Shown piece by piece: positions 681 to 6,250 of a stretch of 64,000 nt of DNA. The stretch lies in contig JAAEOK010000061.1 of assembly GCA_024244705.1 (NCBI GenBank), positions 1 to 64,000 on the forward strand, written 5' to 3'. A program made the position numbers and the translations under genes. Within the stretch, counting starts at the first letter, position 1. Every line of letters begins with the position of its first letter. The DNA is from Alphaproteobacteria bacterium (lineage in GTDB: Bacteria; Pseudomonadota; Alphaproteobacteria; JAAEOK01). The notes under the pieces were generated by a model. The model ran no database searches. It was given only the letters and a program-made list of their open reading frames with translations, and was not told the origin of the DNA.

Positions 681-819
681 AAACAACCGGTCCTGCGCCG
701 CGCCCGGGATGACGCATGAACCCGCGGGCATGGGGATGGCGGGGTCGGCCATGCCGGCGATTCAGCGCTGTGCGACGCGCTTTGACTGGCGCGCGGCAGG
801 GAGTACACTGCCCCACGAT

Positions 820-899
820 ACGCTGGGGTGCCGGACATCTGCGCCGGCTGAGAGCATACCCATCGAACCTGATCTGGATCGTGCCAGCGGAGGGAGCGT
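820..899 (+). promoter_or_regulatory. TPP (thiamine pyrophosphate) riboswitch, THI element
   Basis: The conserved THI-box elements occur in order: GGGGTGCC (825-832), hairpin arms CCGG/CCGG (831-834 with 844-847), CTGAGA (848-853), ACCC (858-861), ACCTGATCTGGAT (867-879) and GCCAGCGGAGGGA (883-895). The closing helix P1 pairs ACGCT (820-824) with AGCGT (895-899). The ribosome-binding sequence GGAGGGAG (889-896) is part of the aptamer's 3' strand and the ATG at 901 follows at once, so ligand binding should hide the ribosome site directly. This predicts repression of the downstream ABC transporter when TPP is plentiful. Confidence 0.93.
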
Positions 900-900
900 C

Positions 901-2061
901 ATGTCGTCCAGCCTCAAACGCCTGTTTTCAGCCATTTCGACCCGTATCATTGCAGCGTTCTTGTGCTGCGCCGCGTTCGCCGTGCCGCCGGCCGACGCCG
1001 CCGATGCGAATATCCCCGTCCTGGTGCCGATCACCGGGTTCCTGTCGCTCGAAGGCACCAGCCAGCGCAACGGCGCGGTGCTGGCGCTGGAAAACCCGCC
1101 CGCCGAGATCTCGGTGACCTACGACGTCGCCGATACCTCGACCGCGCCGGAAGTCGCGGTCAACGCCCTCGAACGCGCGCTTGCCGACGGCGACGCGACG
1201 GCGGTGGCGGCGTCGATGTTCGGCCCCCAGATGCTGGCGATGATCCCGCTCGCCGACCGCCACGGCGTGCCGCTGGTCACCGTCTCGGGCACGGCCAAGA
1301 TTACCGAGCTCGGCAGCCCGTGGGTGTTCCGATTCTTCCCCGGCGACACGGTGGCCAAGGTGGCGCAGGTCGACTACGCGGTCAACGAACTGGGCATCAC
1401 CAAGCCGGCGATGATTTACCAGACCACCGCCTACGGCCAGTCGGGCGCCGCCCATATCGGCGAAAATCTGCGCCGGCTGGGGATCGCGCCGGTGCTCGAG
1501 GAGGGGCTCGACGTCAAGGTCAAGGACATGACGCCGGTACTCGCCAAGGCGCGGGCGGCGGGCGCCGACGCGCTGCTGCTCCAGCTCCATTCGGGACCGA
1601 CCGCGCTGTTGGTGCGGGCGGCGGCAGCCGGCAATCTGGGCCTGCCTATCGTCGCCGGGTCGGCGATGCACCAGCCGTCGACGGCGGCGCTGCTCGACCC
1701 GGGTGAACTCGACGGCGTGTGCGCGGAAAGCGCGTCGTCGCCGATATCGGGCGGGACACCGGAGATGGATGCCTGGCTCGAGCGCTACCGCGCCGCTTTC
1801 GGCACCGAACCGGACGCCTTCGCGCTCGGCCAGTACGACGGCACCATGATGGTGTTGAGCGCAATCGCCGCCGGCGCCCGCTCGCCCGCGGAGGTGCGCG
1901 ACTATCTCGCCGGCAATTCCCATGACGGGCTGGCCATGACCTACCGCAGCGACGGCAGCGGCAACATGGCCCATTCCGCGATCATCGTCTGCTATGACGG
2001 AGAGACCCGTATCCCCCGGGTCGTCAAGGTCTTCGACAACGTCACCGGCGCGCTCGACTGA
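901..2061 (+). CDS. Periplasmic substrate-binding protein of a Liv-type ABC transporter, TPP-regulated
   Basis: 386 aa. An N-terminal signal peptide (basic start, hydrophobic core about residues 15-30, PADA-A cleavage region) precedes a two-lobed Leu/Ile/Val-binding-protein (Peripla_BP_6) fold starting IPVLVPITGFLSLEG. Such proteins capture ligands in the periplasm and deliver them to LivHM permeases. The frame stays open far upstream, but the TPP aptamer and its Shine-Dalgarno fix the start at 901. It is first in an operon with livH, livM-livG fusion and livF. Riboswitch control suggests the ligand is thiamine, a phosphorylated form, or a pyrimidine or thiazole precursor. The fold assignment is firm; the ligand is inferred from regulation only. 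Confidence 0.88.
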   Translation: MSSSLKRLFSAISTRIIAAFLCCAAFAVPPADAADANIPVLVPITGFLSLEGTSQRNGAVLALENPPAEISVTYDVADTSTAPEVAVNALERALADGDATAVAASMFGPQMLAMIPLADRHGVPLVTVSGTAKITELGSPWVFRFFPGDTVAKVAQVDYAVNELGITKPAMIYQTTAYGQSGAAHIGENLRRLGIAPVLEEGLDVKVKDMTPVLAKARAAGADALLLQLHSGPTALLVRAAAAGNLGLPIVAGSAMHQPSTAALLDPGELDGVCAESASSPISGGTPEMDAWLERYRAAFGTEPDAFALGQYDGTMMVLSAIAAGARSPAEVRDYLAGNSHDGLAMTYRSDGSGNMAHSAIIVCYDGETRIPRVVKVFDNVTGALD

Positions 2062-2100
2062 CCGCGGAATGACCGGCCGGCGGCGGAAGGCGGTCGTCCG

Positions 2101-2973
2101 ATGACGCTGCTTCAGCTGGTCATCAACGGTGCCGCGCTGGGCGCCGCCTATGCTCTGGTGGCGCTCGGTTTCGTGCTGATCCTGAACGCCACCAACGCGG
2201 TCAACTTCGCCCAGGGCGACCTCGTCGTCGCCGGCGGTTTCGTCGCCGTCGCGCTGGCCGGCTTCCTGCCGGTCCCCGGCATCCTCCTCCTGCCCCTGGT
2301 GCTGATACTGACCTTCGTCCTCGGCCTGGCGTTCTCGCTGCTCGCCTATTTCCCGCTGCGCGACCGGCCGCCGGTGGCGGTGTTCATATCGACGATCGCC
2401 CTCGGCATCGTCTTTCAGAACGGCTTCAACGCCGGGTTCGGCCCCGACCCCCGCGCCACCCCGCCCTTATTCGCCGGCGGCTTTTGGCAGCTCGACGGGC
2501 TGACCATCGAGAAGCAGGGCGCGGCCATCGTGGTCACCGCGGCGGTGCTGATCGTGGCCCAGCACCTGGTATTCACGCGCACCCAGTTCGGCCGCCGCCT
2601 GCGCGCCACCGCGCAGGACCGCGACATGGCCCGTGCGCTCGGCGTCCGCGTGACCTGGATGATCGCGCTGACCTTCGGCTGGGCGGCGGCGCTCGCCGGG
2701 ACCGCGGGGCTGCTGCTGTCGAACAAGTTCTTCGTCACGCCGACCGACGGCACCGCCTACATGATCCTGGCCTATATCGCGGTCACCATCGGCGGCTGGG
2801 GCCGTATCGCCGGCGCCGTCGCGGGGGCGGTATTGATCGCCGTCTTCGAGGTCGTCGTCTCGGCCTATCTGAGCTACACCGTCGCCATCGCCGCGCTCTA
2901 TGGGGCGGTTCTGCTGGTCCTGTTTTTCAGGCCCCAGGGGCTGTTCGGCGACGTCATCCAGAGGCGGGCCTGA
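2101..2973 (+). CDS. Liv-type ABC transporter permease, LivH family
   Basis: 290 aa, polytopic inner-membrane protein with about eight hydrophobic segments. The N-terminus (LVINGAALGAAYALVALGF, then NAINFAQGD-like NAVNFAQGD) and the LGVRVTWMIAL region are typical of LivH. It forms half of the membrane channel with the LivM half of the next gene. It lies 39 bp after the binding protein with a GGAAGG ribosome site, and 2 bp before the next start, so the genes are co-transcribed under the TPP riboswitch. Confidence 0.9.
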   Translation: MTLLQLVINGAALGAAYALVALGFVLILNATNAVNFAQGDLVVAGGFVAVALAGFLPVPGILLLPLVLILTFVLGLAFSLLAYFPLRDRPPVAVFISTIALGIVFQNGFNAGFGPDPRATPPLFAGGFWQLDGLTIEKQGAAIVVTAAVLIVAQHLVFTRTQFGRRLRATAQDRDMARALGVRVTWMIALTFGWAAALAGTAGLLLSNKFFVTPTDGTAYMILAYIAVTIGGWGRIAGAVAGAVLIAVFEVVVSAYLSYTVAIAALYGAVLLVLFFRPQGLFGDVIQRRA

Positions 2974-2975
2974 CC

Positions 2976-4760
2976 ATGGCCTGGCTCGGCCGCGGCCTCA
3001 ATCTGCCGCTGGCGCTGGCGGCGCTGGCGCTCGCCGTCTACGCGCTCGGTTTCGCCAACGGCTACCAGCTGCGGCTGCTGACCGTCGCCGGCATCTACGC
3101 CATCCTGGTCATCGGCTATCAGTTCATCTTCGGCCACGCCGGCGCGCTGTCGCTGGCCCAGGGCGTGTTCTTCGGCGTCGGCGCCTATGTCGCCGGCGTC
3201 CTCGGCGCCAACCACGGCTGGTCCTTCGTCGAGACGTTCCCGCTGGCGATCCTGGCGCCGACGCTGCTGGCGGCGATCGTGGCGGTCCCGGTGCTGCGCC
3301 TGGAATCGCACTATTTCGCATTGGCGACTCTCGGCATCGGCCAGGTCGTGCTGTTGGTCGCCGTCAACTGGCAGAGCGTTACCGGCGGCGCCAACGGTAT
3401 CCCCGGGGTCCCCGGCATAACGCTCGGCAATCTCGCCGTCGGGCGCGGCCTGCCGACCTTTCTGTTCGTCTGGGCGTGGGTCGCGTTGTGCGGGTTTACC
3501 GCCTGGCAAATCATGCGCGGCCTCTATGGCCGCATGTTCGAGCTGATGCGCACCAACGACTTCGCCGCCCAGGCGATCGGAATCAATATCGGCCGCCTGC
3601 GCCTGGCCGCCTTGCTGCTCAGCGCGGCAATGGGCGGCCTGGCCGGCACCCTGTACGTGCACACCCTCGGCGTGATCTCGCCCGATGCGCTCGAATTCCC
3701 GGTCATGGTGACCTGCCTGACGATCGCCGTGGTCGGCGGGCGCTACAGCGTCGCCGGGGCGATCATCGGTGCCGTGCTGCTGATCCACCTGCCGGAATGG
3801 TTCCGCTTTCTCGATAAGTACTACCTGATCGCTTACGGCGCGACGATGCTGGCGGTGATCGTCGGCGCGCCCTATGGCTTGGCCGGCGCGGCCCACCGGC
3901 TGCGCGACAAATGGCTGCCGCCGACGCCGGGACCGATGCCGACAGCGGCAACGATCGGCCCGGTTCGACCGGCCGCGACGACGCCCGCCGCGCCGGCGCT
4001 GGCGATATCGAATTTGGCCAAGCGGTTCGGCGGCGTTCATGCGGTCGACAAGGTTTCCTTCACCGCCACTCCGGGCGAAGTTCTGGGAATCATCGGACCC
4101 AACGGCTCCGGCAAGACGACCCTGATCAACCTGATCACCGGGTTCTACCGGGCCGACGCCGGCAGCCTCCATTTCCGCGGCCGCGATATCACCCGGGCCC
4201 TGCCCCATGCCATCGCGGCGGCCGGCATCGCCCGCACCTTCCAGAGCTGCCGCCTGGTCCCCGACATGACCGCGCTCGACAACGTCGCCGTGGCGCGCCA
4301 CGCGGCGATCGGTGAAGGTCTGCGATCGGCGTTGAGCGACATTGGCGGCCTGTCGCACCTGGAACGCGCCCGGCGCGAGGCGGCGCCACTGCTCGATCGG
4401 CTCGGCGTTGCCGATGTCGCGTTGCAATGTTGCGGCACCCTGCCCTACGGCACCCAGCGACGAGTGGAGATCGCCCGCGCGCTGGCGACCGAGCCGGCGA
4501 TGGTGATGCTCGACGAGCCGGCGGCGGGGACCAACGAGGACGAGCAGACCGACCTGGCGGCGCGGCTGCGCGGGTTGGCCGCCGACGGCCTCGCCCTGGT
4601 CATCGTCGAGCACAATATGCCGTTCCTGCTGCCGGTCGCCGACCGCGTCATCTGTCTCGACGACGGCCGCATCATCGCCGCCGGCAGCGCCGACGAAATT
4701 CGCCGCCATCCGGCGGTAATCGCCGCCTATCTCGGCACCACCGGGAGCGGCGGGCGGTGA
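2976..4760 (+). CDS. Fused LivM permease and LivG ATPase of the TPP-regulated ABC transporter
   Basis: 594 aa. Residues about 1-310 are a LivM permease (FGHAGALSLAQGVFFGVGAY motif, GLAGTLYVHTLGVISPDAL, then a C-terminal membrane segment). A Pro/Ala/Thr-rich linker (about 315-340) leads to a LivG ATPase from about 345 to the end, with Walker A GPNGSGKTT, signature-region LPYGTQRRVEIARAL (the usual LivG variant of LSGGQ), Walker B MVMLDEPAAG and H-loop VIVEHNM. The ATG at 2976 is 2 bp after livH stops. LivM and LivG are usually separate proteins; the fusion ties channel and motor in a 1:1 ratio. Confidence 0.9.
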   Translation: MAWLGRGLNLPLALAALALAVYALGFANGYQLRLLTVAGIYAILVIGYQFIFGHAGALSLAQGVFFGVGAYVAGVLGANHGWSFVETFPLAILAPTLLAAIVAVPVLRLESHYFALATLGIGQVVLLVAVNWQSVTGGANGIPGVPGITLGNLAVGRGLPTFLFVWAWVALCGFTAWQIMRGLYGRMFELMRTNDFAAQAIGINIGRLRLAALLLSAAMGGLAGTLYVHTLGVISPDALEFPVMVTCLTIAVVGGRYSVAGAIIGAVLLIHLPEWFRFLDKYYLIAYGATMLAVIVGAPYGLAGAAHRLRDKWLPPTPGPMPTAATIGPVRPAATTPAAPALAISNLAKRFGGVHAVDKVSFTATPGEVLGIIGPNGSGKTTLINLITGFYRADAGSLHFRGRDITRALPHAIAAAGIARTFQSCRLVPDMTALDNVAVARHAAIGEGLRSALSDIGGLSHLERARREAAPLLDRLGVADVALQCCGTLPYGTQRRVEIARALATEPAMVMLDEPAAGTNEDEQTDLAARLRGLAADGLALVIVEHNMPFLLPVADRVICLDDGRIIAAGSADEIRRHPAVIAAYLGTTGSGGR

Positions 4761-5467
4761 GCGCGCCGCTGCTCCAATTGCGCGGACTGAGTGTCGCCTA
4801 TGGCGCGCTCACGGCGGTGCACGAGGTGGACCTTGCGGTTGCCGCCGGCGAGGCGGTGGCGCTGCTGGGCGCCAACGGCGCCGGCAAGTCGACGCTGATC
4901 AACACCATCGCCGGGCTGGTCCCGGCGGCCGCCGGATCGATCCACTACAACGGCCGGGAGCTCGGCCGCCTCCCACCGGAGGCCAGGGCCAGGGCCGGCC
5001 TCGGCTATAGCCCGGAGGGGCGCCGCATATTTCCCGGCATGACGGTGCGCGAAAACCTCGAGGTCGGCTGCTGGGCGCCGAAGCGCGAGCGGGTGCGGCG
5101 TTTCGAACGCGTGTTCGATCTGTTCCCCGGGTTGCGCCAACGGTGCGACACGCCGGGTTGGCAATTGTCCGGCGGCCAGCAGCAGATGGTGTCGATCGGC
5201 CGCGCCCTGGTCGGCAATCCTCGCCTGATGCTGCTCGACGAGCCGAGCCTGGGCCTGTCGCCGATCCTGGTCGCCGAAGTGTTGGCGACGGTGCGCCGGA
5301 TCGCCGATACGGGCACTGCCGTGCTGCTCGCCGAGCAGAACGCCGCCCGCGCGCTCGACGTCTGCGACCGGGCCTACGTGCTCAAGCTGGGCCGGGTGGC
5401 GGCGTCGGGGCCGGCCGCCGAGCTGCGCGACGGCGACCGCCTGCGCGACGCCTTCCTCGGCGGTTAG
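4757..5467 (+). CDS. Liv-type ABC transporter ATPase, LivF family
   Basis: 236 aa, translated from a GTG that overlaps the previous stop (GTGA), implying translational coupling. It has Walker A GANGAGKST, signature LSGGQQQMVSIGRAL, Walker B LMLLDEPSLGLSP and switch AEQN. It is the second nucleotide-binding subunit, pairing with the LivG half of the fusion protein. It is the last gene of the TPP-controlled operon; the next gene converges with 3 bp between. Confidence 0.92.
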   Translation: MSAPLLQLRGLSVAYGALTAVHEVDLAVAAGEAVALLGANGAGKSTLINTIAGLVPAAAGSIHYNGRELGRLPPEARARAGLGYSPEGRRIFPGMTVRENLEVGCWAPKRERVRRFERVFDLFPGLRQRCDTPGWQLSGGQQQMVSIGRALVGNPRLMLLDEPSLGLSPILVAEVLATVRRIADTGTAVLLAEQNAARALDVCDRAYVLKLGRVAASGPAAELRDGDRLRDAFLGG

Positions 5468-5470
5468 GCA

Positions 5471-6250
5471 CTATCCGGTCGAATCGAGAAACCCGGTGAC
5501 CGCGGCGACGAATTTGTCGGGCTGGTCGGCGTGGACCCAATGGTCGGCGTCGGCCACCGTCTCGACCACCGCCCGCGGGAACAAGCGCCCGATCAGGTCG
5601 CCGTGCTCGGCGCCGACGAAGTCGGAGCGCGCGCCGGCGACGAACAACGCCGGACCGGTGTAGCGCCGGTCGAGCAGCGGGCGCGGAAAATCCACCAGGC
5701 GCGGCATCTCGGCGGCCAGCGCGTCGAGATTGAGGCGCCAGGCCGCCCCGCCCTCGACCGGGGTCAGGTTCTGAAGCAGGAAGGCGCGGATGCCGGCGTC
5801 GGGGATCGCGTCGCGAAGGCGCGCATCGACCTCGCTGCGGCGCCGCGCGACGGCGAGGTCGACGGCCTGCATCGCCCGTACATAGGGCAAGTGTCTTTGG
5901 TCATAGGTCACCGGGGCGATATCGACGACGACCAGCGCCGAGACCCGGGCGCCTTGCTCGAGGGCCAGCGCCATCGCCGCCTTGCCGCCCATGGAATGGC
6001 CGATCACCGCCGCCGTTTCGAGCCCCTGAACGTCCATGAAGGCGACCACGTCCGCCGCCATGTCGATGTAGTCCATCGACGGATCCCAAGGCGAGTCGCC
6101 GTGGTTGCGGAGGTCCAACGTATAGACCCGGTGGCGGTCGCCGAGACGGCGGGCGATCGAGGTCCAGTTGCGCCCGCTGCCGAAGAGGCCGTGCAGGATG
6201 ATCAGCGGCGGCCCCTCGCCGGCCGCCTGATAGGCCAGCTCGAGCGCCAT
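5471..6250 (-). CDS. Alpha/beta-fold hydrolase (YbfF/ABHD11-like esterase)
   Basis: 259 aa. It shows the HGLFGSGRNW oxyanion-loop motif near residue 20, nucleophile elbow GHSMGG (Ser about 98) and a C-terminal DHWVHADQPD containing the catalytic His. This arrangement (LDLRNHGDSP after the first strand) is that of the short-chain esterase family of E. coli YbfF. It starts 3 bp after pntB ends and is the last gene of the pyruvate dehydrogenase-transhydrogenase operon; why an esterase is there is not evident. The substrate is unknown. Confidence 0.85.
   Translation of the reverse strand: MALELAYQAAGEGPPLIILHGLFGSGRNWTSIARRLGDRHRVYTLDLRNHGDSPWDPSMDYIDMAADVVAFMDVQGLETAAVIGHSMGGKAAMALALEQGARVSALVVVDIAPVTYDQRHLPYVRAMQAVDLAVARRRSEVDARLRDAIPDAGIRAFLLQNLTPVEGGAAWRLNLDALAAEMPRLVDFPRPLLDRRYTGPALFVAGARSDFVGAEHGDLIGRLFPRAVVETVADADHWVHADQPDKFVAAVTGFLDSTG

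Follow-up and report, generated by a model that had tools for sequence, protein, structure and literature searches.

What does an ATP-binding cassette (ABC) importer of the Liv type carry into the cell when a thiamine pyrophosphate (TPP) riboswitch stands in front of its genes? The question arises from positions 814 to 5,467 of the window, a 64,000-nucleotide stretch of contig JAAEOK010000061.1 from an alphaproteobacterium (assembly GCA_024244705.1), where such a riboswitch precedes livK, livH, a livM-livG fusion, and livF. The initial annotation proposed uptake of thiamine or a precursor, and this proposal is supported by the conserved linkage of riboswitch and operon, by the pathway gaps of the genomes that carry both, and by the loss of an amino-acid-specific acidic residue in LivK. 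From sequence comparison, the substrate class is likely a B1 vitamer, and the transporter probably imports either the missing thiazole half or vitamin B1 itself. We favor the thiazole moiety, in the form of hydroxyethylthiazole (HET), of carboxythiazole (cHET), or of a phosphorylated thiazole, with a probability of slightly less than one half (about 0.47). The pairing of a TPP riboswitch with a Liv-type operon is genuine and conserved, and current annotation lags behind it.

Riboswitch and Operon Structure

A covariance search of the window (cmscan) bore out the THI-box aptamer claimed from the sequence, with a match to the full model of the THI element (RF00059, positions 1–105) at 814–912 on the forward strand, with 67.6 bits where the gathering threshold is 54.3 (E 4e-11). 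The last model positions extend into livK. The P1 helix that closes the aptamer (820–899) pairs A820–U824 with A895–U899 in the sequence and the Rfam alignment and also appears in the minimum free energy fold; thermodynamic folding of the leader was uninformative (z 1.3). The Shine-Dalgarno sequence GGAGGG (889–894) is located in the conserved 3' core of the aptamer, 6 nt ahead of the ATG, so that the ribosome-binding site lies inside the aptamer as first described, though directly 5' of the P1 strand rather than within it. The reported tight adjacency to livK also held, with the distance between P1 and the ATG at 901 corrected from 2 bp to the single base C900. This spacing leaves no room for a separate expression platform, and direct occlusion of the ribosome-binding site would therefore be the natural mechanism. 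Several relatives place the Shine-Dalgarno sequence in the same way, and the start codon is nearly as close to the aptamer in G199, G086, G369, G194, and G079; other relatives have their own ribosome-binding site approximately 50–80 nt downstream.

All four open reading frames were recovered on the forward strand where they had been placed, and Pfam agreed with their assignments. They encode a LivK-type periplasmic binding protein of 386 aa (livK, 901–2061; Peripla_BP_6), a LivH-type permease (livH, 2101–2973; BPD_transp_2), a fused permease and ATPase (livM-livG, 2976–4760; BPD_transp_2, ABC_tran, and BCA_ABC_TP_C), and a LivF-type ATPase (livF, 4757–5467; ABC_tran), the last sharing 4 nt with the fusion gene in a set of closely spaced or overlapping genes. 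With one binding protein, two permeases, and two ATPases, the Liv/HAAT subunit set is complete. The proteins nevertheless score below the curated NCBIfam equivalog cut-offs (LivK 32.5/477, LivH 95.6/379, LivG 228.6/362, and LivF 205.6/441 bits). The operon is thus a Liv/HAAT importer by its subunits and fold, yet it falls outside the branched-chain amino-acid equivalogs.

Conservation of the Riboswitch-Operon Pairing

Relatives were defined as livK orthologs with E < 1e-50 among 385 alphaproteobacterial genomes. A single-copy ortholog, 44–66% identical to the window LivK in alignment, was present in 30 genomes across many families, with the livK-H-MG-F order and the livM-livG fusion preserved. 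Rfam scans of these loci placed a riboswitch directly upstream of livK in 22 of the 30 genomes, hereafter carriers; 19 matches, including that of the window, exceeded the cut-off and three fell just under it (48.6–53.4 bits, E about 1e-6 to 1e-7), while the scans found none upstream of livK in the other eight. The livK-bearing genomes have around two TPP riboswitches each, and the linkage to livK is far beyond chance. The search for the same pairing in related genomes suggested by the initial annotation was also successful in Azospirillum, where plasmids carry the operon with a LivK about 64–65% identical to the window protein and a riboswitch upstream in all four plasmids examined. The annotated Azospirillum copies are labeled as branched-chain amino-acid transport in RefSeq, as had been anticipated for Liv-type proteins.

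Thiamine-Synthesis Genes in the Carriers

Nine of the 30 genomes had a true match to the thiazole synthase ThiG (score over 300 bits), counting one in the window assembly itself (G000, contig C103). We rejected the latter as a plastid contaminant. Contig C103 spans 73 kb at 24–25% GC, whereas the window has 65%, and its genes include rpoC1/rpoC2 in the split cyanobacterial form, clpC, sufB/C, secA, secY, tatC, and thiG (L129, L152, L153, L154); its low GC and the split rpoC1/rpoC2 identify it as plastid, and this removes the only ThiG match of the window bacterium. Its assembly is 96.7% complete, and the organism itself apparently has neither thiC nor thiG. No photosystem gene was recognized in the approximately 65 kb of C103 that were read, and the plastid may be non-photosynthetic.

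With the plastid sequence removed, ThiG was absent from 20 of 22 carriers and present in six of eight riboswitch-free relatives (Fisher p 0.001). Carriers also differ from the class as a whole, where 193 of 385 genomes have ThiG (p 8e-5). ThiC, present in 10 of the 30 genomes and missing from 16 of the 22 carriers, showed no link to the riboswitch (p 0.38). Both the ThiG and the ThiC tests ignore ancestry, and the riboswitch label requires six changes on the LivK tree of the 30 genomes. Within families f80 and f102, carriers lack ThiG and members without livK have it. As to whether the operon replaces thiamine-synthesis genes, loss of ThiG accompanies the riboswitch, under weak phylogenetic control, and loss of ThiC does not.

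Downstream steps are largely retained. Of the 30 genomes, 29 have ThiE and 28 have ThiL, and those without a match are incomplete assemblies, so the thiazole and pyrimidine halves can be joined. THI4 was considered as a substitute thiazole synthase and rejected, as no protein in the 30 genomes exceeded its cut-off and the weak matches reflected the nucleotide-binding fold only. The thiE gene resides in a conserved tkt-gap-fba-thiE-efp stretch, in which no thiazole kinase was recognized among the thiE neighbors of 13 genomes.

The same inventory bears on the main rival, which ranks next after thiazole and which we consider less probable, namely import of intact thiamine or of thiamine monophosphate (TMP) by the operon. 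Such import would agree with TPP control, with the frequent absence of both thiC and thiG from carriers, and with a nearly universal ThiL beside a mostly absent thiazole kinase, ThiM. On the other hand, it would make ThiE and the TPP-controlled ThiXYZ system found in 17 of 22 carriers superfluous, and thiamine pyrophosphokinase (TIGR01378) was not found in any of the 30 genomes. Thiamine would require a further kinase, whereas TMP needs ThiL alone, and for this reason the rival stays strong.

Other TPP-Controlled Genes in the Same Genomes

The other TPP riboswitches of the 30 genomes precede thiC, thiazole-synthesis genes, or ThiXYZ-type systems. The ThiXYZ-type (pyrimidine) sets of the carriers, whole or in part, share 48–71% identity with the set that the window genome has on contig C112. 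Genomes G113, G382, and G085 have no ThiXYZ set; in G113 and G382, which also lack ThiG, thiC and this operon are the only TPP-controlled loci. In G379, which has neither thiC nor thiG, a TPP riboswitch lies about 40 nt ahead of the thiazole kinase gene thiM. Taken together, these TPP-controlled gene sets are read most simply as supply of the thiazole half by the operon. Because the riboswitch goes with absence of ThiG and not of ThiC, and because a ThiXYZ-type system is already present in most carriers, we narrowed the candidate substrate towards this half.

These gene sets make import of a pyrimidine vitamer, whether hydroxymethylpyrimidine (HMP), aminopyrimidine, or formyl-aminopyrimidine, improbable. 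Many carriers do lack thiC, but riboswitch presence does not track thiC loss, most thiC-negative carriers already possess ThiXYZ, and the two thiC-positive, thiG-negative genomes G113 and G382 keep the operon as their sole TPP-controlled transporter.

Two further arrangements were observed under TPP control. Genomes G079 and G194 contain a distant ThiXYZ relative accompanied by LuxE and LuxC genes, in which a TPP riboswitch precedes a LuxE-like acyl-protein synthetase, a LuxC-like acyl reductase, and an NMT1-type ABC transporter (L131:1389-6423 and L060:468-5502, respectively); this operon may serve to salvage a carboxylated thiamine vitamer. In G086, a TPP riboswitch on the reverse strand (L133, about 5642-5770) lies right after thiL and before an SBP_bac_6/8-type binding protein (ThiB/PhnS-like).

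The Binding Protein LivK

The AlphaFold2 model of LivK (mean predicted local distance difference test score 93.5) adopts the HAAT fold. Its best neighbors in the PDB were Atu2422, TM1135, and LivJ, with TM-scores of about 0.77–0.78 to 3ipc, 3td9, and 4gnr, and further structural neighbors included proteins that bind aromatic acids lacking an amino group, such as 4-hydroxybenzoate. In profile alignments to amino-acid binders (e.g., 3td9 and 4gnr), the Asp that meets the α-ammonium group of the ligand aligns to Ser-254, a position at which 32 of 33 family members have Ser; the carboxylate-site Ser of 3td9 aligns to Gly-108, which is Gly in all 33. The roles assigned to these two positions are those in the published LIVBP and Atu2422 structures. 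Residues His-230, His-257, and Gln-258 are conserved in the LivK family and represent candidate ligand contacts.

These substitutions, together with the riboswitch linkage in 22 of 30 genomes and scores far under the NCBIfam cut-offs, argue against a conventional amino-acid (or amide) importer under incidental TPP control, or a family with a substrate unrelated to thiamine. The Liv/HAAT fold and subunits, the RefSeq label, and the presence of gamma-glutamyltransferase and beta-eliminating lyase genes beside riboswitch-free relatives would fit this explanation, which we nonetheless regard as unlikely.

Proposed Substrate and Mechanism

The riboswitch, the operon, their conservation, gene presence or absence, and the residue changes were computed, and from these we infer TPP repression, the direction of import, and thiazole as the substrate. 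At high TPP, the aptamer would close and hide the Shine-Dalgarno sequence in its 3' end, leaving livK untranslated and, by coupling, livH-livMG-livF likewise; at low TPP, the operon would be made. The transporter would then bring in the thiazole half as HET, cHET, or the phosphate of either, which ThiE could join to a pyrimidine half obtained by ThiXYZ-type import in most carriers or made by ThiC, and ThiL would phosphorylate the ThiE product to TPP. In a more specific version, somewhat more tentative than thiazole import in general, the operon would be dedicated to high-affinity import of carboxythiazole or thiazole phosphate and would feed ThiE in ThiG-less bacteria, either through another kinase or by direct import of the phosphate.

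Several observations weigh against thiazole as the substrate. ThiM was missing from 28 of the 30 genomes, so that the thiazole proposal needs a different kinase or uptake of phosphorylated thiazole. The ThiG-riboswitch link is phylogenetically insecure: only two independent pairs lie on well-supported branches, and six at most, and although ThiG agrees with the riboswitch pattern in an average of 1.6 of the two well-supported pairs, and almost never runs against it, these are too few for significance. Genomes G051 and G347 have a complete pathway. With neither thiC nor thiG, and with no TPP-controlled gene or uptake system besides this operon, genome G085 has a gene set that fits import of whole thiamine better. 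Riboswitch-free relatives mostly share the conserved residues of LivK, which means that they could bind the same ligand or that the residues are not diagnostic, and the genes adjoining some of these relatives hint at another substrate in the riboswitch-free lineages.

Neighboring Genes

Downstream of livF in the window, the genes lie on the opposite strand, an alpha/beta hydrolase gene followed by a nicotinamide nucleotide transhydrogenase-like gene. No thiamine gene therefore adjoins the operon, in agreement with the initial annotation. In 11 relatives, an orotate phosphoribosyltransferase gene is found 3' of livF or livK (e.g., L039:10526-11215), several apparently in the same operon. We rejected this PyrE-like gene as a functional clue; since it encodes an ordinary orotate phosphoribosyltransferase and often stands behind an opposite-strand gene, we read it as conserved neighborhood. 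Riboswitch-free livK relatives adjoin a gamma-glutamyltransferase gene (L064:9932-11488, L065:10066-11622, L004:12735-14150) or a gene for a threonine-aldolase-like beta-eliminating lyase (L052:11023-12036, L057:2979-3923).

Relation to Known Systems

The operon resembles the LivKHMGF/HAAT branched-chain importers (E. coli LivJ, Atu2422, TM1135) in subunit set, fold, and gene order, and differs from them in its TPP riboswitch, its livM-livG fusion, and the replacement of both the α-ammonium acid and the carboxylate Ser. It is not ThiXYZ, ThiBPQ, or an energy-coupling factor (ECF) system. ThiXYZ, which co-resides in most of the same genomes, is also a TPP-controlled ABC importer, but it combines an NMT1-family binding protein with an unrelated permease, in contrast to the Peripla_BP_6 protein found here. 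Likewise, ThiBPQ is a TPP-controlled ABC importer of a B1 compound, whereas its binding protein and permease belong to other families with no match among the operon proteins. The predicted Firmicutes thiazole transporter ThiW, which is not a binding-protein ABC system, together with ThiM illustrates thiazole salvage under TPP control, as proposed here. TPP control of thiW has been described (PMC6478431). The 4-hydroxybenzoate binders RPA0668 and RPA0985 share the HAAT fold with LivK and accept a ligand that, like carboxythiazole, has no α-amino group; they are just 17–18% identical to LivK, and TPP control is not known for them.

The TPP-linked or B1-related transporters named in the papers searched are ThiBPQ, ThiXYZ, ThiV, ThiT, CytX, YkoF, and Omr1. 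No description of a TPP-controlled Liv system was found in the literature searched, which did not extend to the PMC3766115 supplement with its 19 TPP-controlled transporter types, and a listing in RegPrecise is possible.

Significance

High-affinity thiazole uptake, effective at very low concentrations, is documented in E. coli and algae through a transporter of unknown sequence, and ThiE accepts carboxythiazole phosphate (PMC5899164). A Liv-type family labeled as amino-acid transport would fill this sequence gap and, if the thiazole assignment is true, would for the first time link a thiazole transporter of proteobacteria to its genes. The proposal is testable in culturable Azospirillum species. 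Microbial communities are shaped by trade in vitamin B1 and in its two halves, and, if the assignment is true, many apparent B1 auxotrophs would become precursor scavengers.

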